Source of the DNA: a virus
DNA length: 30,727 nucleotides
Virus record (IMG/VR): IMGVR_UViG_3300032173_000023
Location: 1-30,727 of that record
Strand: one strand, 5' to 3'
This document shows positions 281 through 28,766 of the stretch, piece after piece; the first letter of the stretch is position 1, and each line of letters begins with the position of its first letter. The notes under the pieces are model-generated. The model made no database searches. It was not told where the DNA came from and saw only the letters and a program-made list of their open reading frames with translations. The position numbers and the translations under genes are program-made.

Positions 281-288
281 GGGTAAAA
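281..288 (+). promoter_or_regulatory. GGGTAAAA box (putative late promoter)
   Basis: Exact GGGTAAAA in the intergenic gap, 32 nt before the ATG at 313. It is followed after exactly 11 nt by AGC. It belongs to the recurrent element described under findings; promoter function is inferred. Confidence 0.55.
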
Positions 289-312
289 CATTCATTATAA
301 GCCTTTAGGAAA

Positions 313-804
313 ATGCTCGGCAACTTTGACATCCCGTCCGTAGACCACCTACGTGAAGGCATCGATTATACAATCGTTGAGTGGGACTTTGCCTCTCGGG
401 CCTCTGCCCCCCCGGTTCAACAGCCACATGCCGGCCAACCCTGCCCAGCAGGAACGAAAATGATCTTCGGGCTTTGCCGTCGCTTGAAGGGTTCTGGAGA
501 TTGGGCATCAGGTGACGATACTGACAAAGAGAGAGAGTTGAGGCAACAAGCGGGCAAGGAAGGTTCTGCGTTTGAAAACAACAAAGCTATCCAAGCCGGC
601 GGCAAGAAGTACGGATGGGCTAAAAAAGATGGTAAGCCGGTCCTCGTTGAATGGGGTTCGGTTTGCGCTAAAAAGGATGCCAAAGGTAACTGCGTAAGTT
701 CTACTGGCGCCAATACGCCAGCAACTCCCGCCGCCCCCGCTGCAAAGCCAGTAGTGCCTGCTGCAACCCCCGTTGCCCCAACTCAACGTAGAGCCGTAGT
801 CTAA
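313..804 (+). CDS. Hypothetical protein, Pro/Ala-rich C-terminus
   Basis: 163 aa. The ATG at 313 is preceded by AGGA at 307-310, a reasonable ribosome binding site. Residues 44-61 hold a small Cys motif (CPAGTKMIFGLCRRLKGSG). Two further Cys flank a KKDAKGN segment near residues 118-126. The last 30 or so residues are a low-complexity Ala/Pro/Thr/Val tail that is probably disordered. There is no signal peptide or membrane segment. The position between other putative virion genes and a GGGTAAAA box upstream suggest late expression. Family not recognised. A minor structural protein is plausible, but nothing in the sequence proves it. Confidence 0.75.
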   Translation: MLGNFDIPSVDHLREGIDYTIVEWDFASRASAPPVQQPHAGQPCPAGTKMIFGLCRRLKGSGDWASGDDTDKERELRQQAGKEGSAFENNKAIQAGGKKYGWAKKDGKPVLVEWGSVCAKKDAKGNCVSSTGANTPATPAAPAAKPVVPAATPVAPTQRRAVV

Positions 805-814
805 CCTTAATCAA

Positions 815-822
815 GGGTAAAA
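815..822 (+). promoter_or_regulatory. GGGTAAAA box (putative late promoter)
   Basis: Exact GGGTAAAA in the gap after the stop at 804, 43 nt before the ATG at 858. AAGCC follows, with AGC after 10 nt where most copies have 11. Confidence 0.55.
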
Positions 823-857
823 TAAGTTAACAAGCCTTTCCTTATAACTTGGTTAAA

Positions 858-1310
858 ATGTATAACCCAAGACCCTCTGACTTAGACACCTTTACAGAAG
901 AGGACTTAAAACTCAAAAAGTTCTCCCATGAACCCACAGACTACTTCAAAAATACTGTAATGGAGCCAAACGTCATTACCCCCATGAGACCCAGTTTCAG
1001 CGAGTATGACTCATTGGGCAAAAAGCACACGGACCTGTCGGACAGAATTCAGTCCCTCAACGATAAGATGAAGTTCTCCCGCCAAAGGGGTGCGTTTCAG
1101 GCTTTACAAACTCAGATGAAAGAAGTTAAGAATCTTGTAAAGGAGCGCGAAAGGATCGATGCCCAGATGGCGACCCTTGACCTGGCCCGCAAGAAAACGG
1201 ACGACCACCGGATTGCTACTGGTGAAGAAGTTTCCTACTCTGAGAGAATCGACTCAGTGTCAGACAGGATTGCTAACCTTGAGAAGTGGATGGCGACTGG
1301 GGAAGGGTGA
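858..1310 (+). CDS. Hypothetical coiled-coil protein
   Basis: 150 aa. I chose the ATG at 858; an in-frame TTG at 849 would add only three residues. Residues 1-50 are polar, with several Pro and Phe. Residues from about 55 to the end are highly charged (Lys, Arg, Glu, Asp) with heptad-like spacing of Leu/Ile/Val, as in a two-segment coiled coil: DLSDRIQSLNDKMKF, then VKERERIDAQMATL, and DSVSDRIANLEKWM at the end. No enzyme motif is visible. The TGA overlaps the ATG of the kinase-like gene (TGATG), so the two are probably translationally coupled and may act together. A scaffold, head-assembly or adaptor role is possible but unproven. Family not recognised. Confidence 0.75.
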   Translation: MYNPRPSDLDTFTEEDLKLKKFSHEPTDYFKNTVMEPNVITPMRPSFSEYDSLGKKHTDLSDRIQSLNDKMKFSRQRGAFQALQTQMKEVKNLVKERERIDAQMATLDLARKKTDDHRIATGEEVSYSERIDSVSDRIANLEKWMATGEG

Positions 1311-2437
1311 TGTGGAGGAAATCTAGAAAAGGCTGCTCACTGGGGAAATCCTGTGGGGCAACTTGTATTACCCGTTCTGACGTCTGTCAGATTGAACTAT
1401 CTGGCCGTACTTCTGAAGGTTTATCAGCATTCTTGAATAGGGTAAAGTCTGCTACCCAACAGAAGTTGTCCTCTGTATCGGGCCCTAAACTGGACCAGAG
1501 AACCCAAGCAGGCACTACAGGCAACACAAAGTGGGCCAGGGACGACGCTAAGGACTTTGACGGTGCCTTCTTAACTGGCAAGAGGATAAAGGGATTAAAA
1601 GAATCATTTAACTGGGCTGAAACTCACGCTAAAGGCTTTAAGGTCGGGGAAGGTGCCTATGGAACTGCTATACTGGTGGATGGTAAGTCAGGTAAGCCTG
1701 GTTATGTAGTGAAGCGGGGTGAAGTTAGCACCACAGAGGCTAGCATCATTAAGAAGCTCGGTGAATCGGACATTGGACCGAAACTTCTTTATGCCGAACT
1801 GGCTAAAGGTAAACCCAAGATGGAATACGGAAAGAGTTTTGTCACTGGCCGCATTGCTATGACAAGAGTTCCCGGTAAAGACTACGGTGAGTTTGATAAA
1901 AATACAGATAAAGTAGGAAAGACAACCATTGGTGATGCCTATTGGTTTCTAAGGTCTAAGCTCCACAAGATGGGCATAGCTCACAATGATTCCCACTCCG
2001 GCAATGTGCTGATTGACGATAAGGGTAAGGCACGTTTTGTGGACTTGGGGCTGGCCCAAAACAACCCCCGTGCTGCACTATCAGAGGCGCTAGGGGTATT
2101 CACAGCAAGGCGATTCTTCCCCGAGGGTGCCTCAGCAAGTTCAGGGAAAGAGAACGGGGACTTTCAGGCCAAGGGCCAACCCCAGTACGGTGTAAGAGAC
2201 ATGGTCAATGGCCGTGAAGCTCCCGCCAACTTGCTCCGAATGAGAGACAACCTTAAAAGTGTCTTCGGTGAGATGAAGTCTGCAGGATTCTCTGATGATG
2301 ACATTGCTGACATGATGGCATCGAAAATCAGGAAACCAGACTCTTACTACGAAAAGGGCACCTGGAAAAACATGACTGATGAAACAGCTACAAAGCTTAT
2401 CAACACCTTGTATGAGGGGGTCAAGGACTTTTCCTAG
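1310..2437 (+). CDS. Protein-kinase-like protein with Cys-rich N-terminus
   Basis: 375 aa; the ATG at 1310 overlaps the preceding stop by one base. Residues 9-26 hold four Cys (9, 15, 19, 26; GKSCGATCI core), a possible metal-binding or disulfide knot. The rest carries the protein-kinase fold landmarks in order: Gly-rich loop VGEGAYG (112-118), Lys135 in YVVKRGE, Glu143 in TTEAS, catalytic loop HNDSHSGN (225-232, Asp227 and Asn232), and metal-binding Asp245 in RFVDLG. The compact catalytic loop resembles RIO/Bud32 or ABC1-type atypical kinases more than classical Ser/Thr kinases. All key residues are present, so it should bind ATP and transfer phosphate. The substrate is unknown. It sits among putative virion genes, so it could be packaged or could modify structural proteins; that is inference. 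Confidence 0.8.
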   Translation: MWRKSRKGCSLGKSCGATCITRSDVCQIELSGRTSEGLSAFLNRVKSATQQKLSSVSGPKLDQRTQAGTTGNTKWARDDAKDFDGAFLTGKRIKGLKESFNWAETHAKGFKVGEGAYGTAILVDGKSGKPGYVVKRGEVSTTEASIIKKLGESDIGPKLLYAELAKGKPKMEYGKSFVTGRIAMTRVPGKDYGEFDKNTDKVGKTTIGDAYWFLRSKLHKMGIAHNDSHSGNVLIDDKGKARFVDLGLAQNNPRAALSEALGVFTARRFFPEGASASSGKENGDFQAKGQPQYGVRDMVNGREAPANLLRMRDNLKSVFGEMKSAGFSDDDIADMMASKIRKPDSYYEKGTWKNMTDETATKLINTLYEGVKDFS

Positions 2438-2599
2438 TGGAACCAAGTTTTGATAATTTTGCCTGAAAACGGCACGAACAAAAAGTTTCCCCCACGGGTT
2501 CCCACACAGATAAAAAATTTTTTCAGTGAGTGATGTAGTTAGCTAGCAGAAAAATTTCCACTCCAGTTTCCCACCATAATTATCAAAACTTGGTTCCAC
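2437..2599. repeat. 163-bp element bounded by perfect 22-bp inverted repeats
   Basis: The left arm (2437-2458, beginning GTGGAACCAAGTTTTG) is the exact reverse complement of the right arm (2578-2599). The spacer is 119 nt and non-coding. Inside it are an imperfect 25-nt direct repeat (2481-2505 and 2550-2574, 19 of 25 identical by eye) and a 12-bp A6T6 palindrome at 2512-2523. The left arm begins on the last base of the kinase-like gene's stop codon. No target-site duplication is visible. It could be a miniature mobile element, a binding region for a phage protein, or a structured RNA or terminator; the sequence alone does not decide. Confidence 0.75.
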
Positions 2600-2604
2600 C
2601 CCGC

Positions 2605-2630
2605 TACCCCTGAGTAGGATGGGGGTAAGT
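2605..2630 (+). promoter_or_regulatory. Hairpin with degenerate GGGTAA box before the first giant fibre gene
   Basis: TACCCC (2605-2610) pairs with GGGGTA (2622-2627) around an 11-nt loop. The right arm continues as GGGGGTAAGTTTAAGG, a degenerate form of the GGGTAAAA box, 45-49 nt before the ATG at 2670. A similar TACCC-CGA-GGGTA hairpin surrounds the box at 15318. Confidence 0.35.
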
Positions 2631-2669
2631 TTAAGGACGCCTTTGCGCACCGTATACGCTCTTTAGCAA

Positions 2670-7391: not shown

Positions 7392-7446
7392 CCTTCTGTC
7401 TGGCTGTGGGCACACCTACTTCTCCGACTTAGCGTATTGTTAGTTA

Positions 7447-7454
7447 GGGTAAAA
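7447..7454 (+). promoter_or_regulatory. GGGTAAAA box (putative late promoter)
   Basis: Exact GGGTAAAA in a 91-nt intergenic gap, 36 nt before the ATG at 7483. AGC follows after exactly 11 nt. Confidence 0.6.
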
Positions 7455-11695: not shown

Positions 11696-11703
11696 GGGTA
11701 AAA
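11696..11703 (+). promoter_or_regulatory. GGGTAAAA box, distal copy
   Basis: Exact GGGTAAAA at the end of a run of nine G, 125 nt before the ATG at 11821 and 75 nt upstream of a second copy. It is much further from a start codon than the others and lacks the downstream AGC, so it may be a secondary or inactive copy. Confidence 0.35.
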
Positions 11704-11770: not shown

Positions 11771-11778
11771 GGGTAAAA
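11771..11778 (+). promoter_or_regulatory. GGGTAAAA box (putative late promoter)
   Basis: Exact GGGTAAAA 50 nt before the ATG at 11821, with AGC after exactly 11 nt. It follows the terminator at 11649, consistent with a new transcription unit. Confidence 0.6.
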
Positions 11779-11820: not shown

Positions 11821-13593
11821 ATGGCCAATTTGACCCCAATACAACTACTGCGCACAGGAGTAGCTAACCGTAGGCCAGACCCTGCGACTTTGCTGCCCGG
11901 TCAACCAGCAGTAAACCGCAATGAGCTTGACCCTGGACTATTCTTTTCAGACACGTTAGGAGATCTGTTCAAGGTGGGACCTTGCTCAGTAGGTACCGAA
12001 GCCCCCAACGTAACCCCTGGCGGTAGTGCTGGTAATGCTACTGGTGAGCAGTGGCTAAACACTTCAAACCCTAATTCCCCTGGACTCCTAGTATTTGACG
12101 GGAACCGTTGGAGAGGAGTTACTGCCATCTCTAACACTCTGTGGGTAGACATAAACGGCAGCGACGATAACGACGGCCTTAGCCCTCAAGCCCCAATGAG
12201 GACTATTAAACACGCTCTTGATAATGCTGAGGAAGGGACCCGGATTCAGGTCTCTCCAGGAAACTTTGAAGAGAGCAACCCACTGGTATTCCCCCACCCA
12301 TTCATCTCAATAGTTGGTGCGGACCTCCGTACCTCTTCCATCACTTTGGAGAATGACGACGACCTGTTCCATGTAGTTAACGGGTGCTATGTTCAAAACT
12401 TCTCCTTTTTCGGCTCTGTAACAAAAACCCTCGATCCGTCAGTCTCCCCGACAGAGTCGATCTGTTCTGCTGAATTTATTCAGACAAAGGGTATAATGTC
12501 GTTCAAACCTACGGGGTCGGGCATTATTTCTCACAGCCCCTATGTTCAAAACTGCACCAACTTTGTCAATAACAGCATCGGCCTAAATGTAAACGGAAGT
12601 AATGCTGGCGGCCTGAAGAGCATGGTTCTAGATAGCTTTACTCAGTACAATCCTGATGGGGTTGGGGTAAAGGTTTACAACCGTGGTTATTCCCAGGTTG
12701 TCAGTATGTTTACGATTTGTGCCGACAAGTCTGTCTTAGCAGAGACTGGGGGCACGGTCAGCGTTACGAACAGTAACTCAGACTTCGGCAACTACGGGAT
12801 GTATGCCGATGGTACTGGCCCACTGGAACAATCAGGAAAGCTGGTAGCCTCTACGGCAAATAACAGCGAATTTAGCCTTGAAGATTTAACAAGTGACCAA
12901 TACCCTTACGTGGGTCAAGTGGTCACTGTTGGGGACCTGTACTACAATGTCGGAACTATTACAGTTACTGACCAAGGCAACGGTTATACGAGTCCCCCAA
13001 CTGTAACGATATCAATTGGCACTGGGCCTAATGCTATTGCTGCGCAGGGCATCGCTGTAATTAGAAACGGGATACTTGATAGAATTGATATTGCTTCTCC
13101 AGGACAGAACTACAGGGCTAGTGATCCTATCTCAGTAACTATTACCGGTGGGGGTGGGATTGGGGCTGCAGCATCTGCATCTAAGTACCCTATCTACTAC
13201 ACTGTAGGAGGTGTGACAGAACCTTTTACCGGCCTCAATGGAACGGTATCAATTACAATTCAGGAAAATCTTCCCTACACTCCTTCCCCAGGAGACAACG
13301 TTAATTTCTGGCGCGTTAGCCGAATCATTGCCAACTCTCATTGCATGGAGTATGTCGGCAGTGGTGTAGATATTGGCCTTGCCATCCCCTTTAGCGGCGG
13401 AACTGCCATTCAAGCTAACGAAGTAGTTGAAGTAAATGGAGGTCGAGTTGCTATCACAAGCACTGACCAATTAGGAGACTTCCGTGTTGGTGAAGACTTG
13501 GTGATTAACCAAAATACTGGGACAATTTCCGGTCAAGCGTTCAGAAAGTCTATACTAGCTACCGTAATCCCTTACATCCTCGCCCTATCATAA
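11821..13593 (+). CDS. Beta-helix fibre/spike protein (paralogue 3 of 3)
   Basis: 590 aa, the smallest of the three related fibres. The N-terminus holds LLPGQPAVNRNELDPGLFFS then KVGP, matching the 1573-aa protein, followed by TGEQWLNTSN. The pectate-lyase-like opening WVDINGSDDNDGLSPQAPM leads into RTIKHALD. SIVGADLRTSSI (about 162), NCTNF...NVNGSNAGGLKSM and GGTVSVTNSNSDFG (about 310) match the beta-helix core of the others. Unique to it are two GYTSPPTVTISIG / NYRASDPISVTITGG units (about 385-445), a short beta-rich repeat seen in other phage and bacterial proteins. It ends 1 nt before the next ATG, so it is probably cotranscribed with the small protein and collagen fibre that follow. Probable structural fibre; enzyme activity not shown. 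Confidence 0.8.
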   Translation: MANLTPIQLLRTGVANRRPDPATLLPGQPAVNRNELDPGLFFSDTLGDLFKVGPCSVGTEAPNVTPGGSAGNATGEQWLNTSNPNSPGLLVFDGNRWRGVTAISNTLWVDINGSDDNDGLSPQAPMRTIKHALDNAEEGTRIQVSPGNFEESNPLVFPHPFISIVGADLRTSSITLENDDDLFHVVNGCYVQNFSFFGSVTKTLDPSVSPTESICSAEFIQTKGIMSFKPTGSGIISHSPYVQNCTNFVNNSIGLNVNGSNAGGLKSMVLDSFTQYNPDGVGVKVYNRGYSQVVSMFTICADKSVLAETGGTVSVTNSNSDFGNYGMYADGTGPLEQSGKLVASTANNSEFSLEDLTSDQYPYVGQVVTVGDLYYNVGTITVTDQGNGYTSPPTVTISIGTGPNAIAAQGIAVIRNGILDRIDIASPGQNYRASDPISVTITGGGGIGAAASASKYPIYYTVGGVTEPFTGLNGTVSITIQENLPYTPSPGDNVNFWRVSRIIANSHCMEYVGSGVDIGLAIPFSGGTAIQANEVVEVNGGRVAITSTDQLGDFRVGEDLVINQNTGTISGQAFRKSILATVIPYILALS

Positions 13594-15309: not shown

Positions 15310-15325
15310 TACCCCGAGGGTAAAA
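15310..15325 (+). promoter_or_regulatory. GGGTAAAA box within a small hairpin
   Basis: The box at 15318-15325 lies 49 nt before the ATG at 15367, with AGC after exactly 11 nt. TACCC-CGA-GGGTA (15310-15322) forms a small palindrome over the box. The surrounding leader is very similar to those at 18060 and 18600. Confidence 0.6.
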
Positions 15326-15366: not shown

Positions 15367-16263
15367 ATGTCCTTAAGTACAGTTGAACTCTTAGACGCTA
15401 CAGGAGTTACTCCGGGTAGCTACGTCAACCCGAACCTTACAGTAACAACTGATGGTCGAATCACAAGTATTGTCTCAGACCCGACCCCTGGGCCAACGGG
15501 GCCACAGGGGTTGGGTGGACTTCAAGCCCTTGATGACATTAGCGCATCGTTTAACGGGGTTACCACAACTTTCCTTCTGACTTATTTCAGCGGAGCCAAT
15601 CTTCCACCCACTGTGGTTGAAGATGATCTGGTTATATTTGTCGGCGGTGCGGTTCAGTCCGCCGCAGCATTTTCCTGGAACTCAGCAACTAGCCAAATTA
15701 CTTTCTCGGAAGCTCCGCTTTCCGGGGACTACTTTGTTGGTTTCGTGGCAAACACGGGTGCAGGGGGACCTGGGCCAGCAGGGCCAGTAGGGCCAGCAGG
15801 ACCGACAGGGCCAACGGGGACTGTCATTTGGTGGTCTACCTCTACCGCGCCTGTAGGTTTCCTTACTTGTAACGGGGCGGCTGTTTCAAGAGCCACATAC
15901 AGCGACTTGTTCGATGTTATTGGAAGCACTTTTGGAAACGGTGACGGAAGCACAACGTTCAACCTCCCTGACCTCCGTGCCGAATTCATTCGCGGCTGGG
16001 ATAATGGTCGAGGAGTTGATCCGGGTCGAGTTTTTGGTAGTGCGCAGGCGGATGCGTTTGAGAGTCATACTCACGCATCAGCCGGTTCTGGGTCAGGGTC
16101 GAACGGATTTTGGCAAGATTGGCCTAGTGGTCCCGGTAGTTCTCAAGTGGAAAGCTCCACTAGCTCGGGAATTTGGTTAAACAGTTCACCTACTACAGCT
16201 TCTGCAGGAGGAACGGAGACCCGTCCTCGCAACGTTGCACTTCTCCCTTGCATTAAATTCTAA
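15367..16263 (+). CDS. Tail fibre with short collagen stretch and tail-collar domain
   Basis: 298 aa. The N-terminal 40 residues (VELLDATGV, NPNLTVTTDGRITSIVSDPT) are shared with the 148-aa protein at 18109. Residues about 50-137 hold the same globular module as the larger collagen fibre (DDISASFNGVTTTF, VIFVGGAVQ, WNSATSQITF). Six Gly-X-Y triplets follow (GGPGPAGPVGPAGPTGPTG). The C-terminal part from about 152 is a tail-collar domain: STSTAPVGFLTCNGAAVSR, FGNGDGSTTFNLPDLRAEF, then ETRPRNVALLPCIKF. This tip is a different collar subtype from the one at 13931. It probably binds the receptor or is an alternative tip. The next gene, a predicted fibre-assembly chaperone, begins 6 nt later. Confidence 0.85.
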   Translation: MSLSTVELLDATGVTPGSYVNPNLTVTTDGRITSIVSDPTPGPTGPQGLGGLQALDDISASFNGVTTTFLLTYFSGANLPPTVVEDDLVIFVGGAVQSAAAFSWNSATSQITFSEAPLSGDYFVGFVANTGAGGPGPAGPVGPAGPTGPTGTVIWWSTSTAPVGFLTCNGAAVSRATYSDLFDVIGSTFGNGDGSTTFNLPDLRAEFIRGWDNGRGVDPGRVFGSAQADAFESHTHASAGSGSGSNGFWQDWPSGPGSSQVESSTSSGIWLNSSPTTASAGGTETRPRNVALLPCIKF

Positions 16264-16737: not shown

Positions 16738-17352
16738 ATGAAAAACCCACTTATCCAAATTGTACCAACCTTAAGCAAAGAGGAACTGCGCTCAGTCAAT
16801 CTCTTTTGCGAAAGCAACAGTCAAAAGAAAACAAAATGTACCGTTTTCTCAGGTAATAGTTACAAAGAGGACACCTCAGTTCGTTCTAGTGAAGGCTTTA
16901 CTTTAACTGAGGGTAACTCTGTCACTGACCTGATCGGGAACTCAATTAACAAAGCGTTGCTTGAGTACCGGGACCGTCTCCAGGCGGTCCACCCTTCCTT
17001 GACCCATTACACACTTGCGCCAGGGGCAGTGGGAACGATGTCTCATCGTGAAGGTATTCAGATTCTGGAATACACCCCTGGGCAACAGTATAAATTTCAC
17101 TACGATCAAAACTGGGACCGCAACAGTAACGAATTCTATCGAACCATCTCCGTAGTTCTATACCTTACGTCGGACTTTGAGGGTGGCGGGACTGAGTTCG
17201 CTGACGCAGTGTATAAACCTCAACCGGGCGAAGCTCTAATCTTCCCCTCTAGCTGGTGCTTCCCCCATTCAGGGCAGACGGTCACCTCGGGGTTAAAACG
17301 TGTCGCAGTAACTTGGTACTACGTGTACCCGGCAATGCAGACCAATGGGTAA
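16738..17352 (+). CDS. 2OG-Fe(II) oxygenase, prolyl 4-hydroxylase-like
   Basis: 204 aa, about the size of a single P4H catalytic domain. The double-stranded beta-helix signature is complete: His121 and Asp123 in KFHYDQN, distal His177 in FPHSGQ, and the 2-oxoglutarate-binding Lys187 in GLKRVAVTWY. RTISVVLYLTSDFEGGGTEF and PGEALIFP match the usual intervening strands. It should couple oxidation of 2-oxoglutarate to hydroxylation of a substrate, with prolyl residues in proteins the closest family precedent. Such genes are frequent in cyanophages but usually have no known substrate. Here it lies directly downstream of collagen-like fibres rich in Pro, an obvious candidate substrate by analogy with collagen hydroxylation. 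The leader just before the ATG has a CA-repeat run and no clear Shine-Dalgarno. Confidence 0.88.
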   Translation: MKNPLIQIVPTLSKEELRSVNLFCESNSQKKTKCTVFSGNSYKEDTSVRSSEGFTLTEGNSVTDLIGNSINKALLEYRDRLQAVHPSLTHYTLAPGAVGTMSHREGIQILEYTPGQQYKFHYDQNWDRNSNEFYRTISVVLYLTSDFEGGGTEFADAVYKPQPGEALIFPSSWCFPHSGQTVTSGLKRVAVTWYYVYPAMQTNG

Positions 17353-17354
17353 AA
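17347..17354 (+). promoter_or_regulatory. GGGTAAAA box overlapping a stop codon
   Basis: Exact GGGTAAAA 42 nt before the ATG at 17389. The stop codon TAA of the oxygenase gene is read from inside the box (GGG-TAA-AA). A CA-repeat run follows, and AGC is absent at the 11-nt spacing. Confidence 0.5.
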
Positions 17355-18059: not shown

Positions 18060-18067
18060 GGGTAAAA
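18060..18067 (+). promoter_or_regulatory. GGGTAAAA box (putative late promoter)
   Basis: Exact box 49 nt before the ATG at 18109, AGC after exactly 11 nt. The whole leader (GATAGCGTGACC...TTTACTGA-ATG) closely matches that of the fibre gene at 15367, at the same 49-nt spacing. Confidence 0.6.
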
Positions 18068-18599: not shown

Positions 18600-18607
18600 G
18601 GGTAAAA
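18600..18607 (+). promoter_or_regulatory. GGGTAAAA box (putative late promoter)
   Basis: Exact box 45 nt before the ATG at 18645, AGC after exactly 11 nt. It shares ACCCCGAGGGTAAAATAAGG with the leader at 15312. Confidence 0.6.
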
Positions 18608-18644: not shown

Positions 18645-21600
18645 ATGTCAACTCTTATTTTCCCTTCGTCACCGTTTAATGGACAGGTTTACCCTGAGCA
18701 GCCGATTCCTGGCGTCAACCAATATATTTACAACGCTCAGGCGAACACTTGGGAACTGACTACGGGAGACGGTCCCTGCTGCCCAGGCGTTTTCTTGGCG
18801 GACGAGCAAGACAACATTTGGTCTTGTAACACTTTGCCTCCGGGCGAAGCAGCTAATAATTTCCTAGTAGGGCATTGTGCTGGTGCCAATCTGTCGCTGG
18901 TAGGTACCTTCTACTCGAAACAAGACAACATATTTATTGGAGAATGCTCTGGATTTAGCGCTGGAACGGGCGGGGCAATTGGGCCCGAGGAGCAAGTTAG
19001 GGACGGGTTGATCGGGAATGTTAATGGTAACTTCTTTGCTGGCAGGTTAGCTGGCTACTGCCTGACCCAAGGTTCGCACAACAACTTCTTTGGAGGAAGC
19101 GCAGGCCGCCTCTCAACGGCTGGATCGTACAACAACTTTTTAGGACTCGGGGCGGGGTTATGCGTCACCGGGTCAAATAACAATTTCTTTGGAAGCTACG
19201 CGGGAGGGGGAGATTTCCCGATTGCTGACGCCGCTGGAATGGTTGATTCAACCGCCGAAAACACGGCGAGCCACAACAACTTCATGGGATCGGAGGCGGG
19301 CAGGCTTAACGTGTCTGGTGGTTGTAACAATTTCTTTGGACGCCAGGCAGGTTTTTCAAATAATACAGGGGAACATAATAATTTTATAGGGGATAGAACA
19401 GGTTGCGACAACACCAGTGGAAGTTTTAATAACTTCTTTGGCTTTCGAGCAGGGAAATACAACACTACAGGTTTAGGTAATAACTTTGTTGGTCCTGGTG
19501 CAGGAAGAAACAACACTACAGGTTTAGGTAATAACTTTATCGGAATTAGCGCCGGTCAAAATGAGAACGGTGTGTGTAACACCTATGTTGGCTTTTACTC
19601 CGGGAAGGGGGCTTCGAGTGCTAGGTTAACAGGCTGGGAATTAGTCAGCGCTACTACCTTACCTGGTCAAATAGACAAATACTACTACAGTGTAAATTTC
19701 ACTACGACAAGCGGAACCCAAATACAAGGGTGGGTTATTCGGGATGACGGGGTTTTAGATTTAGTTGATGGCGAAAACATACTTGTTTCTTTGTTAGGAC
19801 CTGTAATTGACGGTGAAACCGCTGTAATTCCTGGCAATCAAATCGGGGGGTCAAGTCCTGCGGATGACGCGACTGTAACTCTTTTTTCTGGGCCGAGTAC
19901 AAATGCCAATGAAAACTTAATTGCGATCGGCACTTGCGCAGCTAGTGACAACTACGGGGATTCCTTTAGCAACATCGCTATTGGAAACTACGCGGGCCAA
20001 TACACAAGTTACGACGGCGAGTTTAACCACATTTTTATTGGAACCCTAGCTGGTCAAATGGCTTTTGGCGGTTTCTACAACATCTATATTGGAGGATCCG
20101 CAGGCCAGTGCGCTGGCGGAGAGGGGAGTTTTTCAAACACCTTTATTGGGACTTACGCTGGTAGGTTAGCAGCAAACAGTTTTTACCAAACCTTTGTAGG
20201 CGCTTACTCTGGTATATCTGTTGTAAATCCCAACGGTTGGACAGGACCTGGAAACCAGTTGTTTGGAGCTTTTTCTGGCTACGCCCTGACAACGGGAGTT
20301 GCAAACTCGATGTTTGGTTCTTATGCCGGGTATTGTGCTACAACGGGAACCTACAACAGTTTCTTTGGTGTTTCCGCTGGCGAAGGTTTTACAACTGGCT
20401 CTTGCAATGCGATTTTTGGCTCTAACTCCGGGACTCAATCTTACTACGACGCTGGATTTGCGGGGAACCCTGCGGGTCCGAGAAGCTCCACAGGAAGTAA
20501 CAACACGAATATTGGATCACGGTCGGGGACCTTCCAGCCAGGGGACTCTTCCGGAAACGTGGCCGTAGGGTATAAGAGCAACACCGGAACTTTGTATGGC
20601 CTTTGCGCCTTGTCTGTTGTCCCCTCAACAGCCGTGCCTTCGGAGGCTTACTGTAGTTATGTGATTTCGACCGATTGCGTCTCGACTGCGTCCCTTTGTG
20701 GGGGGGACCCAGGTCTTATCAAAGTCTTCCGGGATGGCGCAGGAACAGTGTGTGATGTTTCCGTTATTGACCCTGGATTCCGCCAGCAATACAGAACTTT
20801 TACTTGCATTCCCGGTACCCTTATCGGCGGTGCATCTGCAGACGATTTACCAATCGCGTCAAGAACTTTATTTAGCAGCAACGATACCTGCAACTTTGAA
20901 AACACCCTTATCGGCCCGTACGCTGGTCAAATGACTGCTTTTGGGACCAGGAATTTCTTCGGCGGTTTTAGAGCTGGCGGATGGAGCGGAGACTACGCCG
21001 CAGATAACGTGGCTATTGGCTCCTATGCAGGTTTCTGCATGGGTGGCTCATATAACATTGCCATCGGCTCTTGTGCAGGATATCACAACACTGCGGGAGA
21101 GAGCAATAACTTCATAGGTAATTCTGCAGGATTCTGCAACACCTCTGGAACTAATAATAACTTCTTTGGTTCTTTTGCAGGATTCTGCAACACCATTGGA
21201 GAGGAAAACAACTTCTTTGGTGAGAGTGCGGGATATTCCAACACTACCGGAAGTCATAATAACTTCTTTGGTGAGAGTGCGGGATATTCCAACACCACTG
21301 GAAATTATAATAACTTCTTTGGTTCTCTTACAGGATTCTGCAACACCTCTGGGTCCTACAACAACTTCACAGGGTTTTGGACTGGTCGCTGCAACACAAC
21401 AGGCTGCTACAACAACTTTTACGGTTCTATTGCTGGCGAACGAAACACAACCGGTTGCTACAATACGTTCGTTGGCTACCTGGCGGGACAGTTCAATACC
21501 ACTGGTAATCGCAACAGTTTCTTTGGCCACCTGGCCGGTCAGTGCGCAACCGGTTCCTTTAATGTAGCCATTGGAAATGGAGCCCTTCGGGATAGCTCAG

Positions 21601-22220
21601 GGTGTTATAACGCCGCCCTCGGTCATTTCGCCGGAGGAGTTGGAAACCGACCCGGTTGTTGCAACATTTACGTCGGATACTACTCGGGGCCAATTCCTGG
21701 CGGACAAACTGGAGCAAACAACACCTACATTGGGTACAGGGCTGGCTGTGCGACGGCACTTAGCTCAACTTCCGCAAACAACATCTTAATCGGCTGTTTA
21801 GCCGGTGGAGACGCTGTCGCTACAATAACCACCCAATCTAACCAAATCGTTGTTGGAAACAACGCTCACACTGACGCTTTCATCAAAATCAACTGGACCG
21901 TAACCTCTGACGGACGGGACAAAACCTGCGTCTCGCAGATTTCCCATGGTCGTGACTTCCTGCAGAAACTTGAGCCTGTGCAATTCAACTGGAAAGATCG
22001 CGAGTCCGGTGAAGTTACCGACGAGAAACCTCGTTACGGTTTCTTAGCTCAGCAAGTTCTGGATGCAGAAGGTGAACCTTCCATTCTCGTGGATGACTCT
22101 GACTCCGAACACCTGAAACTGCGAGAATCAATGATGATTCCGGTCCTATTTAAAATCGTTCAGGAAATGGATGAGGAACTTCGCGCCCTTCGCGCCGAAG
22201 TGGATGCCTTGCGAAGGTAA
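18645..22220 (+). CDS. NNFFG-repeat tail fibre with S74 intramolecular chaperone
   Basis: 1191 aa. After a distinct N-terminus (PFNGQVYPEQPIPGVNQYIY), most of the protein is a repeat of 17 residues with consensus AG-C/S-NTTG--NNFFGS, as expected for a regular trimeric beta-fibre. Cys is unusually frequent. Two non-repeat inserts (about 324-420 and about 658-748) interrupt the array and resemble each other. The C-terminal roughly 105 residues are a peptidase S74 chaperone: Ser1088 in VTSDGRDKTC, then FLQKLEPVQFNWKD, RYGFLAQQVLDAEGEPSILV and a final coiled coil LFKIVQEMDEELRALRAEVD. In this family the domain drives trimerisation and then cleaves itself off before that Ser. It probably forms a mature fibre after release. 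The stop codon overlaps an AGGTAAAA box. Confidence 0.88.
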   Translation: MSTLIFPSSPFNGQVYPEQPIPGVNQYIYNAQANTWELTTGDGPCCPGVFLADEQDNIWSCNTLPPGEAANNFLVGHCAGANLSLVGTFYSKQDNIFIGECSGFSAGTGGAIGPEEQVRDGLIGNVNGNFFAGRLAGYCLTQGSHNNFFGGSAGRLSTAGSYNNFLGLGAGLCVTGSNNNFFGSYAGGGDFPIADAAGMVDSTAENTASHNNFMGSEAGRLNVSGGCNNFFGRQAGFSNNTGEHNNFIGDRTGCDNTSGSFNNFFGFRAGKYNTTGLGNNFVGPGAGRNNTTGLGNNFIGISAGQNENGVCNTYVGFYSGKGASSARLTGWELVSATTLPGQIDKYYYSVNFTTTSGTQIQGWVIRDDGVLDLVDGENILVSLLGPVIDGETAVIPGNQIGGSSPADDATVTLFSGPSTNANENLIAIGTCAASDNYGDSFSNIAIGNYAGQYTSYDGEFNHIFIGTLAGQMAFGGFYNIYIGGSAGQCAGGEGSFSNTFIGTYAGRLAANSFYQTFVGAYSGISVVNPNGWTGPGNQLFGAFSGYALTTGVANSMFGSYAGYCATTGTYNSFFGVSAGEGFTTGSCNAIFGSNSGTQSYYDAGFAGNPAGPRSSTGSNNTNIGSRSGTFQPGDSSGNVAVGYKSNTGTLYGLCALSVVPSTAVPSEAYCSYVISTDCVSTASLCGGDPGLIKVFRDGAGTVCDVSVIDPGFRQQYRTFTCIPGTLIGGASADDLPIASRTLFSSNDTCNFENTLIGPYAGQMTAFGTRNFFGGFRAGGWSGDYAADNVAIGSYAGFCMGGSYNIAIGSCAGYHNTAGESNNFIGNSAGFCNTSGTNNNFFGSFAGFCNTIGEENNFFGESAGYSNTTGSHNNFFGESAGYSNTTGNYNNFFGSLTGFCNTSGSYNNFTGFWTGRCNTTGCYNNFYGSIAGERNTTGCYNTFVGYLAGQFNTTGNRNSFFGHLAGQCATGSFNVAIGNGALRDSSGCYNAALGHFAGGVGNRPGCCNIYVGYYSGPIPGGQTGANNTYIGYRAGCATALSSTSANNILIGCLAGGDAVATITTQSNQIVVGNNAHTDAFIKINWTVTSDGRDKTCVSQISHGRDFLQKLEPVQFNWKDRESGEVTDEKPRYGFLAQQVLDAEGEPSILVDDSDSEHLKLRESMMIPVLFKIVQEMDEELRALRAEVDALRR
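21075..21533 (+). repeat. Tandem 51-nt repeats encoding 17-residue NNFFG units
   Basis: Nine consecutive in-frame 51-nt units begin at 21075, 21126, 21177 and so on. The fourth and fifth units (21228-21278, 21279-21329) are very similar in DNA, pointing to recent duplication. Diverged units of the same repeat continue on either side and in two earlier blocks (about 19057-19605 and 19920-20570). Confidence 0.85.
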
Positions 22221-22222
22221 AA
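22215..22222 (+). promoter_or_regulatory. AGGTAAAA box (variant) overlapping a stop codon
   Basis: AGGTAAAATAAAG spans the TAA stop of the 1191-aa fibre, 72 nt before the chosen sulfotransferase ATG. It has one mismatch to the box, and AGC is absent at the 11-nt spacing. Confidence 0.35.
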
Positions 22223-22286
22223 TAAAGCTTTGACCAGTTGCTTCTACACTGACTCGAACCAACTTCAACCATCTGACAAACCTAAC

Positions 22287-23114
22287 ATGCAAAAGCGTTA
22301 TTACTTCATGGCTGGGCTGCCCCGTTCAGGTAGCACCTTGCTCTCCTCTCTGCTCAATCAAAATCCACAAATTTGCTCAGGGCCGAGTAGCCCGGTTCTT
22401 TCAACAATGTTCGCTCTTGAGTCCCATCTTGGTCAAGATGAGCTTTTCAATGGGTTCCCCAAGCCTGAGCAAGCAAAGAACATGATTGCTAGCGTAATCG
22501 ACCAGTTTTATTCCGACGTTGAAAAACCAGTTGTTATCGACAAGAATCGTGCGTGGGCATCACGGATTCCTTATATTGAGGGGTACATTGGACAGAAAGC
22601 AAAGATTATCTGCCCTGTGCGGGACATTGAGGAAATTCTTACTTCAATGATTACAATGATTCGCAGAAACCCTTATCAAGAAGGAAACCCTCGTATCAAC
22701 TTTGTAGACGAACAGCTGATTAAAAACAATATTCCTTTGACGGATGTCAACCGCTGCAACTTCCTGATAAGTCCTCAAGGAATTTTGGGACAATCACTAA
22801 ACTCCACTCGGGATTGCATGGGGGATAAGACACGTAATCGCCTTCACTTTGTAGAGTATAAAGATCTTGTGGAAAGACCGCAAGAAACCCTCAACAAACT
22901 CTATGAGTTCCTTGGCGAAGAACCGTTTGAACACGATTTCCAAAATGTTGAGAACGTTCATCGTGAACGTGACCTTATTACCTACGGTGTCGCAGACATG
23001 CACGAAGTTCGATCAGAAGTGAAGGCTACTGCACCGTCGCCCGAATCAATCCTGCCGAAGCAAGTTCTTGACGGCTGCCAAGGAATGGACTTCTGGCGTC
23101 GCGCCATTATCTGA
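22287..23114 (+). CDS. Sulfotransferase family protein
   Basis: 275 aa from the ATG at 22287; an upstream in-frame TTG at 22230 exists, but the family fold starts at this ATG. The PAPS-binding loop is GLPRSGSTLLSSLL (10-23). The second phosphate-binding motif is PVRDIEEILTSM (110-121), with Arg112 and a downstream Ser as in sulfotransferases. VVIDKNRAWASRIPYIEGYI and the EYKDLVERPQETLNKLYEFL segment are also typical. It should move a sulfuryl group from PAPS to a hydroxyl or amine; the substrate cannot be read from sequence. It lies between a fibre gene and a glycosyltransferase, so candidates are fibre glycans, fibre tyrosines or host surface sugars, all by inference. Confidence 0.88.
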   Translation: MQKRYYFMAGLPRSGSTLLSSLLNQNPQICSGPSSPVLSTMFALESHLGQDELFNGFPKPEQAKNMIASVIDQFYSDVEKPVVIDKNRAWASRIPYIEGYIGQKAKIICPVRDIEEILTSMITMIRRNPYQEGNPRINFVDEQLIKNNIPLTDVNRCNFLISPQGILGQSLNSTRDCMGDKTRNRLHFVEYKDLVERPQETLNKLYEFLGEEPFEHDFQNVENVHRERDLITYGVADMHEVRSEVKATAPSPESILPKQVLDGCQGMDFWRRAII

Positions 23115-23122
23115 CCTACACA

Positions 23123-23130
23123 GGGTAAAA
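23123..23130 (+). promoter_or_regulatory. GGGTAAAA box (putative late promoter)
   Basis: Exact box in a 42-nt gap, 34 nt before the ATG at 23157. ACC stands where other copies have AGC. Confidence 0.55.
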
Positions 23131-23156
23131 ATAGTTCACAAACCTATCCCCACATC

Positions 23157-23468: not shown

Positions 23469-23510
23469 GTCTTCCCTTCCTAAACCAAATAGTAACAAAC
23501 TCCACTCAAA

Positions 23511-24407: not shown

Positions 24408-24418
24408 GCCAGCCCCTC
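24399..24418. terminator. Possible bidirectional hairpin between convergent genes
   Basis: GAGGGG (24399-24404) pairs with CCCCTC (24413-24418) around an 8-nt loop. It spans the 9-nt gap between convergent stop codons, partly overlapping both gene ends. There is no T-run on either side, so intrinsic termination is doubtful. Confidence 0.35.
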
Positions 24419-25169
24419 AGAAGTCAAGGGTCAAATCTTCAGGGTCTCCTTTTGCAAAGCTTCCGTATAGTTCCGGCGGGGTTTCATAATCCCCGCAACC
24501 TTTACGGCGGTTTGCCGAAGCACACACTAAAGCAAACTCGGCCCTATCTTCATGGAAGTCTTGCCATCCGGACCAAAGGATGCTATCCTTAAATTTCTTG
24601 CCAGTGGGGGGACCAATCAAGGTAACGTCGGTGTACCTGAGACCGTTTGAAACCATAAAAGAGTCAGCAAGCTCAGCAAAGCTACAACCAACGTGGTCAA
24701 CATCTGTGCGATTCCCTTTCCTGAGCACCTTACCAGTCAGGTAACACTCAGTTGGCATTGAAGCGACGGCTCTGAAACTCTTTAACTGCCCTAAGACAGC
24801 GTTGCGCATTGCTGCTTTGACTGCATTAAAGTGTTTTTCCTCTGGTGTTGCCGAAGTCTTTATCTTCTTCACCGGATATAGGGCATCCACCAACTTGGAC
24901 TTGGAGACAGGTTGCTTTGAGCCATTCAACTCCAAGCTAATCATCTTTACTTTGTGACCACCTGCAATGTCAATGTTTCGCAAATATATTAGAACTTCCG
25001 GGTCGTTTGAAAGCTTTAGCCATTGCTCTGTCAGCCTGCATGATCTTAGTATGAACTCTCGGGGTTCCCCAATGATGCGACTATTGGCCCTGTGGTTACC
25101 AATAATCCGACCTAGTTTATCTGAATATTCCCCCTTGTTGAGGGTAAATGTAGTTTTTCCGATTGACAT
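24417..25169 (-). CDS. DCL/DUF3223-like protein with HNH-like C-terminus
   Basis: 250 aa, the only minus-strand gene in the window. The ATG at 25169 is preferred over an in-frame TTG two codons upstream. The N-terminal half (IGKTTFTLNKGEYSDKLGRI, NDPEVLIYLRNIDIAGGHKV, KQPVSKSKLVDALYPVKK) looks like the DCL/DUF3223 group. The C-terminal half has CYLTGKVL, RTDVDHVGCSFAEL and ALVCASANRRKGCGDY. The C-x-x-TG, VDH and final N residues resemble a reduced HNH nuclease site, but I cannot confirm activity. A GGGTAAAG sequence lies 30 nt before the start on the same strand. The lone orientation suggests a later insertion or a mobile or moron gene. Function otherwise unknown. Confidence 0.75.
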   Translation of the reverse strand: MSIGKTTFTLNKGEYSDKLGRIIGNHRANSRIIGEPREFILRSCRLTEQWLKLSNDPEVLIYLRNIDIAGGHKVKMISLELNGSKQPVSKSKLVDALYPVKKIKTSATPEEKHFNAVKAAMRNAVLGQLKSFRAVASMPTECYLTGKVLRKGNRTDVDHVGCSFAELADSFMVSNGLRYTDVTLIGPPTGKKFKDSILWSGWQDFHEDRAEFALVCASANRRKGCGDYETPPELYGSFAKGDPEDLTLDF

Positions 25170-25191
25170 TATCAATAATGTATCTGATAAA

Positions 25192-25199
25192 CTTTACCC
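25192..25199 (-). promoter_or_regulatory. GGGTAAAG box upstream of the minus-strand gene
   Basis: On the minus strand this reads GGGTAAAG, one mismatch to the recurrent box, 30 nt before the ATG at 25169. The same bases supply the -35-like TTTACC of the divergent + strand promoter. Confidence 0.35.
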
Positions 25200-25220
25200 T
25201 TTGCCCCTCGAAGCTATAAT
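25193..25220 (+). promoter_or_regulatory. Sigma70-like promoter for the replication-type block
   Basis: TTTACC (25193-25198), a 16-nt spacer, then a perfect TATAAT (25215-25220), 23 nt before the GTG start at 25243. This is a host-type promoter in contrast to the GGGTAAAA leaders of the structural genes, consistent with early or middle expression. Confidence 0.5.
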
Positions 25221-25242
25221 AAGTTTGTAAGGTTTTTTACCG

Positions 25243-25599: not shown

Positions 25600-25775
25600 A
25601 GATTGAAGTTCGCAACGGTTTTTCCAACGGTAAAGAGTATTTTGAGTTCGAGTTACTGGACGGGCCAGATGAAGTGGAGCGTGTCAAGGGTTTTTCCAAC
25701 GACCTCATAAATGCATTTACCAAGGTCTTGGAATGGCGGGAACGAATAGCCCTGGATTACGGTGATGACACCTGA
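25596..25775 (+). CDS. Small acidic ORF coupled by ATGA
   Basis: 59 aa. The ATG overlaps the preceding stop by four bases (ATGA), a classic coupling arrangement. The protein is acidic: KIEVRNGFSNGKEYFEFELL, then DEVERVKGFSND and TKVLEWRERIALDYGDD. It has one internal echo, GFSNG and GFSND. No known family, signal peptide or membrane segment. Support comes from the overlap, clean codon use and the close fit between two real genes. Too short for a confident functional guess. Confidence 0.6.
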   Translation: MKIEVRNGFSNGKEYFEFELLDGPDEVERVKGFSNDLINAFTKVLEWRERIALDYGDDT

Positions 25776-25797
25776 GGCTTACGTTCCAAGCCTGCCT

Positions 25798-25805
25798 GCT
25801 ATACT
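25798..25805 (+). promoter_or_regulatory. Extended -10 promoter candidate
   Basis: TGC-TATACT forms an extended -10 (TATACT at 25800-25805) 22 nt before the exonuclease ATG at 25827. No convincing -35 box is visible. Confidence 0.35.
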
Positions 25806-25826
25806 AAGGTTGAGTTTACACCATCA

Positions 25827-26447
25827 ATGAAACCATCCGAAGAAAAACTCGCAGAGTTTAAAAAATCTGCTGAGCTATGGGCTCAAGAGCGACTAGGCGA
25901 CCGCCGCAGCCTAATCATAGATGTGGAGACAACTGGAATGCTCCACCAAGACCTTGATACAGAGATTGTTCAGCTTTCCGTTATCAACACTGCGGGACGC
26001 TCTGTATTTTCACTCTTAATAAAGCCAAACAAGCCGCTAACACAAAAGCTCATTGACATCCACGGCATTACCAATGAAATGCTGATGGAAGCCCCAGTGT
26101 TCCCACAAATTGCCAAGATGCTTTCTTTCATCCTAGAAGACAAGCATGTCGTTGCATACAACGCTGACTTTGACCTGAAGCTATTGTGGCACTTGTTCAA
26201 GAAATATGACATCCCTGTGCCCAAGGTTGCAGGAGCCTCGTGTTGTATGGACAAATACTCTGAATGGTGTGGTGAATGGAGTCCTAAAAAAGAAGGGTTC
26301 AAGTGGCAAAAGTTGCCAAACCTTTCTGGAATCCCTTCTCACGATGCTTTCTCCGACTGTCTATCTACTTTGAAGGTAATGGAGTTGATGGCAAAGGTCC
26401 ATGACCCTACCTCAACTAACGCCGACGAAATTGACCTCGATTTTTAA
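25827..26447 (+). CDS. DnaQ-like DEDDh 3'-5' exonuclease
   Basis: 206 aa, the length of a stand-alone exonuclease domain. All three Exo motifs are present: Asp32-x-Glu34 in LIIDVETTG, NADFD (112-116, Asp116), and His172-x4-Asp177 in SHDAFSDC. KPNKPLTQKLIDIHGITNEM matches the usual substrate-side segment of DnaQ/PolC epsilon-like enzymes. It should remove 3' nucleotides from DNA or RNA, for proofreading, repair or host nucleic-acid turnover. Near the C-terminus it is acidic (DEIDLDF). The gene sits in a block with ThyX and a 5' nuclease, with an extended -10 just upstream. It is not fused to a polymerase. Proofreading versus RNA or oligonucleotide turnover cannot be decided. Confidence 0.87.
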   Translation: MKPSEEKLAEFKKSAELWAQERLGDRRSLIIDVETTGMLHQDLDTEIVQLSVINTAGRSVFSLLIKPNKPLTQKLIDIHGITNEMLMEAPVFPQIAKMLSFILEDKHVVAYNADFDLKLLWHLFKKYDIPVPKVAGASCCMDKYSEWCGEWSPKKEGFKWQKLPNLSGIPSHDAFSDCLSTLKVMELMAKVHDPTSTNADEIDLDF

Positions 26448-26450
26448 ACA

Positions 26451-26726
26451 ATGTTTGGGACTTTTACCTTTTCTTACACCCCGCTAGAAGATTGCCCCAA
26501 GGAGTGTAATGTAACTTTATCTTTCTCGTCCGAAACTGACATGAAAGACGTAATCAGCCATTTTGAAAACTTTCTTAGAGCAATAGGTTATCCATTGAAC
26601 TTCAGCGACAGGCTAGAGGTCGTTAGCGACCCTGAAATTCCCGGCCCCACTTTAGAGTCCTGGGAAGATTACTTCATGGGTAACGATTTTAATTTTAACC
26701 AACCCCTCATAAAGGATGATAACTGA
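26451..26726 (+). CDS. Hypothetical protein
   Basis: 91 aa. The ATG lies 3 nt after the exonuclease stop and the C-terminus overlaps the ThyX start by 11 nt, so it is embedded in a compact operon. Residues 1-30 look beta-rich (FGTFTFSYTP, CNVTLSFSSET), followed by an amphipathic helix MKDVISHFENFLRAIGYPLN and an acidic tail. Two Cys lie at about 15 and 19 (DCPKEC). No family recognised. Similar small proteins in phages are often unstudied; the operon position could tie it to nucleotide metabolism, but that is inference. Confidence 0.7.
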   Translation: MFGTFTFSYTPLEDCPKECNVTLSFSSETDMKDVISHFENFLRAIGYPLNFSDRLEVVSDPEIPGPTLESWEDYFMGNDFNFNQPLIKDDN

Positions 26727-27528
26727 GGTGGAAAATTTAAATCCGTGGTTCATCGAAAGTTCTAGCAAGGCTCGCCTAGTTAGTCATACTCCTAGCCCAG
26801 AAGAAATGATGGGATATGTCGCCAGAGTAACAAGTAAAGACCAGTCTAACCCCAGTGTTGGCAAGTTGTTGAAGTATTGCGCTAAACACGGCCACTGGAG
26901 CGTCTTTGAACACGCCACAATGACTCTTGAAGTTGTTACTCCGCTGGCAATTGCTATTCAGTTATTACGCCACCGTAGTTTCACCTTCCAACAATTTAGC
27001 GGTAGGTATGAAGATCAAAGCTTCATGCGTGAGTACACTCAGGACCTTTCCTCCTTTATGGAAATGTTCTATATGCCTGAGCAGGCCAGGCTACAAGATA
27101 CGAAAAATAGGCAAAATAGCATCGTTGCTGAGGACGCCTCACTCACAGACTTTATGTGGGGTGAGCTTGAATTTGCATACAGGGCCTGTATCCGGTCTTA
27201 TACAAATATGCTGGATAAGGGCATTGCTAAGGAACTGGCAAGATTTGCTCTACCAGAAGGAGTCTTCTCCCGAGTCTATGTTACTGGCAATTGCCGTAGC
27301 TGGATTCATTACATCGCCGCCCGAGACGACAAGGGAGTGGCCCAAGACGAGCATTGCGAACTTGCACAGTGTGCCAAACAAGTCTTTGCTAACGTGTTCC
27401 CCACAGTCCATGGTGCTATCAACTGGGACAAGCACCTTGACACCGACCTTGATGCACTCACTAAAGAACTTGAAGAAGCGAAAGCTGAAATCAAGACTTT
27501 GAAATTCGTACTTTCTAGCCAACCCTGA
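26716..27528 (+). CDS. thyX: Flavin-dependent thymidylate synthase
   Basis: 270 aa. The ThyX motif RHR-x7-S is at 85-95 (RHRSFTFQQFSGR), and ARFALPEGVFSRVYVTGNCR provides the C-terminal active-site region. It makes dTMP from dUMP with methylene-tetrahydrofolate, NADPH and FAD, unrelated to ThyA, and supplies thymidylate for phage replication. The start at ATG 26716 overlaps the previous gene by 11 nt; a GTG at 26728 is a less likely alternative. The C-terminal 25 residues (DALTKELEEAKAEIKTLKF) form an added coiled-coil-like tail beyond the usual end. The neighbours are nucleases, so the block likely serves DNA synthesis and recycling. Confidence 0.93.
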   Translation: MITEVENLNPWFIESSSKARLVSHTPSPEEMMGYVARVTSKDQSNPSVGKLLKYCAKHGHWSVFEHATMTLEVVTPLAIAIQLLRHRSFTFQQFSGRYEDQSFMREYTQDLSSFMEMFYMPEQARLQDTKNRQNSIVAEDASLTDFMWGELEFAYRACIRSYTNMLDKGIAKELARFALPEGVFSRVYVTGNCRSWIHYIAARDDKGVAQDEHCELAQCAKQVFANVFPTVHGAINWDKHLDTDLDALTKELEEAKAEIKTLKFVLSSQP

Positions 27529-27547
27529 TAACTCACTCACTGAGGAA

Positions 27548-27781
27548 ATGAACAACCAGATCGTTAAAGGCTTTTGGAAAATAGCCGAAGATTACCCCAC
27601 CGTAGATAAAGAATACATTGTAGTCTTCCCTGACCGAGGGGGAAACTACGACATTCTAGACTGCGATGTATGGGAGTTTAGGTCAGGCGAATGGCACAGC
27701 TTGCCCGACTCCAGATTTGCAGAAGAAGAGGTGGGTTTCCCCGGATACTACATCGAACTACCTATGCCAACACCAGTATAA
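27548..27781 (+). CDS. Small hypothetical protein, DUF551-like pattern
   Basis: 77 aa. It lies 19 nt after the thyX stop, with GAGGAA directly before the ATG. The spaced aromatic pattern (FWKIAEDYPTVDKEYIVVFP, CDVWEFRSGEWHSLPDSRFA, GYYIELPMP) recalls short DUF551-type phage proteins, which have W-x-P and a terminal LP-P motif. That similarity is only by eye. It is acidic, without Lys- or Cys-rich motifs. The stop overlaps the ATG of the 5' nuclease gene by one base (TAATG), so translation is likely coupled. No function assigned. Confidence 0.65.
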   Translation: MNNQIVKGFWKIAEDYPTVDKEYIVVFPDRGGNYDILDCDVWEFRSGEWHSLPDSRFAEEEVGFPGYYIELPMPTPV

Positions 27782-28755
27782 TGTCTGAAAGGCCCAAACC
27801 CGAAAAATCTATCGTCCTGGGGGTTTCCCCCAGTCCATTACTTGTGATTGACTACAACGTAATGTGCTTCGCTGTTTTGAACTGGTATCAGTCCAAGATC
27901 GAAGGATTCTTTGACAAAGATGTTGAAAGGAAGTTAGTAAGGGGGGCTTGGGCGTTGTTTGTCAACCGGGGTCCGCAATATATGCCCCGGCATAATTACC
28001 GCATTGTCTTTGCTGCTGATTACAGGAGCAAGAAAACAAGCAACTACTGGCGAAATGACTTCATGGAGCAATCCACCCAAGTTAAAGAAGCGTGGGTCAA
28101 CCACGCTGAAAAGACTGGGGTTGAATTGTCATCTTTGCAAACAAATTATAAAGGTACTCGTTCTGACAAGACAGACTCATTTTGGTTTGTTTACAACGAG
28201 GGGTTAGATTATTGTCGAACGTATTTTCCTTGGTTTTGGATTGAAAGCTTTGAAGCTGACGACGTTGTGTCTTGCATTTGCAGAGTTTCCAGAAACTCAG
28301 TTCCCAGCGATGTAATTAAGCAAAGGCAAATCCTAATTCATACGGTGGATAAAGATTGGATCCAACTGGTTGACGATGAGAATAAAATCCTATTCTCTGA
28401 CTCAAGATTTGTAAGACCGAACGAAAAGATTCAAAATCAGCTCCACGATGAGTACCATGTGAGAGCTTGGGTTGAACACAAGATGAAGACCACGGTAACG
28501 CACCCTCGTGAAATCGCTGACCATAAGGCCCGCCTGAGCGACATGTGTGATAACCTGCCTGCTGGTAGTCCTGTCGAGTTATTTGACCTTATTTACCCGA
28601 ACAATGACCCCAGGTGGAACATTGATGAGTTTCTAATTACCGACGACTTTATGGCAGATTTGAACGACCCTGAGGGAAACACAAGGTCAGATCACTATGA
28701 GCAGGCCATTAGAGCCTATGCAAAAATCTGCCTGGAGATTCCGATTCAAATATAA
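27781..28755 (+). CDS. FEN/RNase H-like 5'-3' exonuclease
   Basis: 324 aa, similar in size to phage T4 RNase H and T5 D15-type flap nucleases. I chose the ATG at 27781 (overlapping the prior stop TAATG) because the longer upstream frame only reads through the neighbouring gene. Metal-binding acidic clusters appear in order: Asp24 in LVIDYN, Asp80 in VFAADYR, FEADD (157-161) and TVDKDWIQL (Asp190, Asp192). YRSKKTSNYWRNDF lies in the helical arch region. It should remove RNA primers and 5' flaps during lagging-strand synthesis. It closes the thymidylate-nuclease block; the next gene starts 34 nt on, behind a GGGTAAAA box. Confidence 0.85.
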   Translation: MSERPKPEKSIVLGVSPSPLLVIDYNVMCFAVLNWYQSKIEGFFDKDVERKLVRGAWALFVNRGPQYMPRHNYRIVFAADYRSKKTSNYWRNDFMEQSTQVKEAWVNHAEKTGVELSSLQTNYKGTRSDKTDSFWFVYNEGLDYCRTYFPWFWIESFEADDVVSCICRVSRNSVPSDVIKQRQILIHTVDKDWIQLVDDENKILFSDSRFVRPNEKIQNQLHDEYHVRAWVEHKMKTTVTHPREIADHKARLSDMCDNLPAGSPVELFDLIYPNNDPRWNIDEFLITDDFMADLNDPEGNTRSDHYEQAIRAYAKICLEIPIQI

Positions 28756-28758
28756 AGC

Positions 28759-28766
28759 GGGTAAAA
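28759..28766 (+). promoter_or_regulatory. GGGTAAAA box (putative late promoter)
   Basis: Exact box in the gap after the 5' nuclease, 31 nt before the ATG at 28790. It marks the return from replication-type to structural genes. AGC is not at the 11-nt spacing. Confidence 0.55.

Follow-up and report, generated by a model that had tools for sequence, protein, structure and literature searches.

A lone GGGTAAAA box as candidate -10 element of a mostly virion-gene promoter class in S-CBWM1-like cyanophages

What is the role of an octamer that recurs on one strand of a viral genome fragment, each time at the edge of a gene, and what might read it? The fragment, positions 1 to 30,727 of the IMG/VR record IMGVR_UViG_3300032173_000023 (30,727 nt, hereafter the window), has genes matching tail fibre, collar and spike families as well as an exonuclease, ThyX and a 5' nuclease, and carries eleven copies of GGGTAAAA on the plus strand and none on the minus strand. 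An earlier note on this DNA had listed these eleven copies, and both their number and their positions hold. Dinucleotide shuffles of the window (n = 100) contained 1.63 copies on average and 6 at most, so that none reached eleven. All eleven are intergenic or overlap a stop codon, in a window whose non-coding share is 4.1% and for whose intergenic DNA the intergenic composition alone predicts about 0.12 copies. We favour, with a probability of roughly 0.7, the reading that the box is the lone -10 element of a phage-specific promoter class, mostly of virion or late genes, which is read by a phage sigma factor, most likely of the type of gp045 of Synechococcus phage S-CBWM1; promoter activity, late timing and the identity of this sigma factor are what we infer from the sequence features set out below.

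S-CBWM1 (139 kb, Aokuangvirus), which has been termed a 'non-T4 cyanomyovirus' (PMC10665884), is the nearest named genome to the window, and the feature table of its record (NC_048106) holds no promoter annotation. The two share the box and the same gene order around a conserved minus-strand gene, the exonuclease gene and the 5' nuclease gene, but are different species with roughly 35-56% protein identity. GGGTAAAA outnumbers every other 8-mer in the S-CBWM1 genome, with 33 copies on the plus strand and one on the minus strand, and a scan of all 8-mers identified it as the most enriched in the interval 15-75 nt upstream of coding sequences (24/33, log10 p -19.6). The major head, portal, protease, sheath, tape-measure and fibre genes are preceded by GGGTAAAA or its variant AGGTAAAA, as are those encoding the NMNAT and the APH kinase, two proteins detected in virions (PMC10665884). 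With gene classes assigned by the analyst, 12 of 24 virion genes are boxed against 3 of 29 replication or metabolism genes (p 0.002). The association with virion-type genes proposed in the earlier note is thus an enrichment and not a rule, since PhoH, a homing endonuclease, tRNAs, the sigma gene gp055 and gp122, which adjoins the DNA polymerase gene just upstream, are boxed as well. The absence of a box before the exonuclease, thyX and 5' nuclease genes, also remarked upon in that note, extends from the window to the S-CBWM1 orthologues. When the box was counted genome-wide by position class, the outcome agreed with the note's prediction both in S-CBWM1 and in a 190-kb relative, G006, in which the first 101 kb are devoid of GGGTAAAA and all 21 copies lie in the remaining 89 kb, the half with the polymerase and virion genes. 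The same orthologues tend to be boxed in different genomes (Fisher p 4e-4 for S-CBWM1 versus G006 and p 0.015 versus the window).

Measured to the likely start codons, ten of the window copies lie within the 31-50 nt range given earlier. These are the plus-strand boxes at 281-288 (32 nt before ATG 313), 815-822 (43 nt before ATG 858), 7447-7454 (36 nt before a tail-fibre gene whose S-CBWM1 orthologue likewise has its box at 36 nt), 11771-11778 (50 nt before the tail-fibre gene at 11821), 15318-15325 (49 nt before the tail-collar fibre gene at 15367), 17347-17354 (42 nt before ATG 17389), 18060-18067 (49 nt before ATG 18109), 18600-18607 (45 nt before a 1191-aa tail-spike-like gene at 18645), 23123-23130 (34 nt before ATG 23157) and 28759-28766 (31 nt before ATG 28790). 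The eleventh copy, at 11696-11703, is a distal tandem box 125 nt from the gene start at 11821. A plus-strand AGGTAAAA variant at 22215-22222 stands 72 nt before a likely ATG at 22287, and a degenerate box, GGGTAAGT, at 2623-2630 on the same strand precedes the baseplate-wedge gene at 2670 by 47 nt; in G006 the orthologous gene has GGGTAAAA at 51 nt. The clustering of start-codon distances at 30-50 nt is what would be expected of an RNA-level signal, such as a translation leader or processing site kept at constant spacing to the start codon. However, copies are also found 39 and 18 nt upstream of tRNA genes in S-CBWM1, 98-103 nt ahead of further genes, that of the tail sheath among them, and on upstream stop codons, and we regard an RNA-level signal as very improbable.

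The placement at gene boundaries described in the earlier note applies to every GGGTAAAA in the window, with the qualification that the TAA of the box at 17347 is the stop codon of a 2OG-Fe(II) oxygenase gene and that of the variant at 22215 the stop codon of the tail-spike gene, while one minus-strand AGGTAAAA (26469-26462) lies within a gene. Of the 33 S-CBWM1 copies, 8 likewise contain the upstream gene's stop codon, and at such sites, as at 17347 and 22215, promoter and stop appear to be fused. A codon-usage by-product of Gly-stop contexts could give rise to overlaps of this kind; this origin was rejected because the other 25 copies contain no upstream-gene stop.

The strongest footprinting test is provided by the conserved minus-strand gene, whose function is not known (24417-25169 in the window, orthologous to S-CBWM1 gp074) and which is encoded at 57 IMG/VR loci. 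Of 32 upstream regions sharing less than about 90% identity with one another, 28 carry the core GGGTAA or AGGTAA on the gene's own strand, 18-46 nt upstream, whereas none of 3488 control positions further upstream has it. The window bears GGGTAAAG at 25199-25192, 30 nt before the ATG at 25169, in agreement with the earlier note, and the S-CBWM1 gene has its box 33 nt before the start. The box thus follows the orientation of the gene, which is expected of a promoter but not necessarily of a signal for replication or packaging. A site of replication, packaging or recombination would be in keeping with the strong single-strand bias seen genome-wide, but is already contradicted by this flip; together with the codon-usage origin it has a negligible probability. 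The divergent operon lacks a box, and in the window and several relatives it has instead a host sigma-70-type -10, TATAAT at 25215-25220 (+) within AGCTATAAT in the window and TGCTATAAT in several of the relatives, so that two types of promoter would lie back to back. A further host-type promoter with no box, comprising TATACT at 25800-25805 (+) and an upstream TGC (extended -10), is predicted before the exonuclease gene at 25827.

The anatomy of the box was drawn from a logo of 40 S-CBWM1 sites, which reads RGGTAAAA, with eight near-invariant positions and a preference for T or C at the next; the overall consensus is RGGTAAAR, with T or C as the usual next base. No -35 element was found at these 40 sites, where the upstream logo columns reach at most 0.22 bit, and GGGTAAAA therefore has the appearance of a lone -10-like element. 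The late promoters of T4-type phages are likewise a lone 8-bp -10 box with no -35 (PMC2988020), and the likeness to the T4 late system, in which gp55, gp33 and the sliding clamp gp45 act at TATAAATA, extends to the AT-leaning sequence just downstream, to the location before virion genes and to a phage sigma factor with no canonical -35 reader. The two systems differ in the sequence of the box, TATAAATA being absent from S-CBWM1, and in the sigma factors, which in the S-CBWM1 lineage are SigB/SigF/SigG-like or generic sigma-70 rather than gp55. The lineage's two sigma factors match phrog_351 and others, T4 gp55 is phrog_234, and gp045 gave neither an alignment nor a profile match to gp55. A divergent T4 gp55 as the sigma factor of the box is not supported, the protein family being different and TATAAATA missing. 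Accordingly, from the suggestion in the earlier note of a divergent late sigma site we retain a phage-specific promoter element, probably read by a phage sigma factor, and abandon the T4/gp55 framing. The S-CBWM1 annotation lists neither a sliding clamp nor gp33, although this concerns the annotation only and no dedicated test was made. A clamp-coupled mechanism is not implied, because the S-CBWM1 DNA polymerase is of family A and pol-gamma-like; the protein (44452-47313) presents a mitochondrial pol-gamma-type exonuclease domain (PF18136, 1.4e-59) and matches family A polymerases weakly.

Two sigma genes, gp045 and gp055, are present in S-CBWM1, and relatives of both recur across the lineage. 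The gp045 family comprises proteins of 225-241 aa. The best subfamily of gp045 is SigB/SigF/SigG (TIGR02980, 2.8e-14), a profile matched by all eight family members scanned, although its score of 53 is far below the curated whole-protein cut-off of 234 bits. The protein covers sigma regions 2-3 and part of 4.1, and the profile match ends before region 4.2. The best solved chain for the family profile is the sigma factor 8x6g_H (4.1e-11), which we take to be SigB of S. aureus. SigB recognizes GGGTAT at -10, or GGGWAW in Bacillales (PMC9847131), while cyanobacterial SigF uses GGTAA at -12 with TAGGC at -32 (PMC2758279). Promoters of the SigB/SigF/SigG class therefore share the GG(G)TA-type -10 with the phage boxes but have a conserved -35 (GTTTAA or TAGGC), which is missing from the latter, just as gp045, unlike those sigma factors, has no recognizable region 4.2. 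A SigB/SigF-type sigma factor devoid of its -35 reader would account for the GGGTAA core as well as for the lack of a -35. The association between gene and box was followed in some 30 related records, ten of them fetched by similarity to gp045 and 20 by the unrelated minus-strand gene; in the former the sharing of gp045 and the box amounts to the box following the sigma factor, and 11 of the latter carry a strong gp045 relative. In two records with no gp045 (G011 and G027) the contig breaks off no more than 6 kb from gp055, in the interval where gp045 would be expected from relatives.

A number of observations count against gp045 as the reader. The loss of region 4.2 is judged from sequence, since the AlphaFold model of gp045 (mean predicted local distance difference test score 50) is too poor for a fold search. 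The window fragment contains no sigma gene, so that the link to a sigma factor derives from its relatives, and the 47-kb record G020 has boxes and gp055 with no clear gp045. Conversely G025 and G026, from a branch of 66% G+C (L102-L104, L106), have a gp045 relative yet only 3-4 octamers and none before the minus-strand gene; relatives of this G+C content still have GGGTAAAA ahead of a gene, and the promoter of the branch may have drifted. The distant phages S-CBS2, S-CRES3 and Cr-LKS4 encode other SigF-like sigma factors and have no box, which indicates that the type of sigma factor does not by itself predict the box. Finally, gp055 is a second conserved sigma factor, with region 2 and a region-4 helix-turn-helix, that could itself be the reader of the same promoter class, with gp045 serving another. 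Its relatives are found in 24 of the 30 records searched (49-50% identical in a subset of relatives compared), and in S-CBWM1 AGGTAAAA lies 32 nt before the gp055 gene, as in autoregulation. Yet the boxes have no -35 for its region 4 to read, the named subfamilies that it matches best are SigK-like and generic, and the G006 gp055 gene has the host-type CTATACT in place of a box. We consider gp055, which keeps the region-4 helix-turn-helix, an unlikely reader, and less likely than gp045.

Recognition with no phage sigma factor, either by SigF, the group 3 sigma factor of the host, or by host sigma-A aided by a phage activator, would be in line with the GGTAA of the cyanobacterial -12 element. 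However, SigF promoters also need TAGGC at -32, of which the logo has none, and the box is limited to the lineage with the conserved sigma factors while the other cyanophages compared have none; host recognition thus seems distinctly improbable. Counted against a reversed-pattern control, nearly all of the approximately 30 related records have a strand-biased excess of GGGTAAAA (for example 31/0, 22/0, 1/20 and 33/1), and no comparable enrichment was observed in T4, S-TIM5, S-N03, A-HIS1, S-CBS2, S-CRES3, Cr-LKS4, MaAM05 or phiAGATE, the last with a slight count of 0/5. A T7-type polymerase was sought by PF00940, with no match in S-CBWM1, G006 or G010, and the control genomes gave no match either. 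A related-locus search with the window 5' nuclease as the query gave no match. Literature searches on the octamer returned unrelated matches, mostly chance primer sequences, and searches directed at such a promoter in cyanophages yielded none.

Other features of these genomes deserve mention. A repeat of approximately 27 nt, GATGTGAAAGATTATTCACTGTCCCA, occurs in S-CBWM1 at 26635, 65859 and 126613 (+) and at 84583 (-); it immediately precedes several boxes and is also found close to the minus-strand gene. In the window a kinase-like gene of APH/RIO type (1312-2437), related to the S-CBWM1 kinases reported in virions, has no box of its own, and the 232-nt gap between it and the baseplate-wedge gene holds a 34-nt inverted repeat (2437-2470 and 2566-2599) that is 85% complementary, its arms 95 nt apart. 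The protein encoded at 22287-23114 begins with MAGLPRSGSTLLSSLLNQNP, which resembles a sulfotransferase P-loop, and matches the unnamed PHROG 27463. Positions 1-265, at the contig edge, hold the C-terminal end of a gene whose repeats are of the KAGGG(N/D)AAGMKGKSIDE type.

Returning to the gp045 reading, we propose that in S-CBWM1-like cyanophages GGGTAAAA alone, with no -35, would serve as the -10 of late-type promoters and would recruit host RNA polymerase bearing a phage-encoded sigma factor, most likely of the gp045 type, which with no recognizable region 4.2 would have nothing to read a -35 box. Replication and metabolism genes are mostly boxless, some of them having host-type extended -10 boxes instead. 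There is about an even chance that this is a second, independently derived late-promoter system of myoviruses with no -35, in which a SigB/SigF-type sigma factor minus its -35 reader acts on a lone GGGTAAAA in parallel to gp55 and TATAAATA of T4. On this proposal, an orphan promoter motif is now paired with candidate sigma factors, late genes of an environmental cyanophage lineage, including the minus-strand gene of unknown function, would become callable from sequence alone, and the -35 would probably have been lost convergently in phage late transcription.

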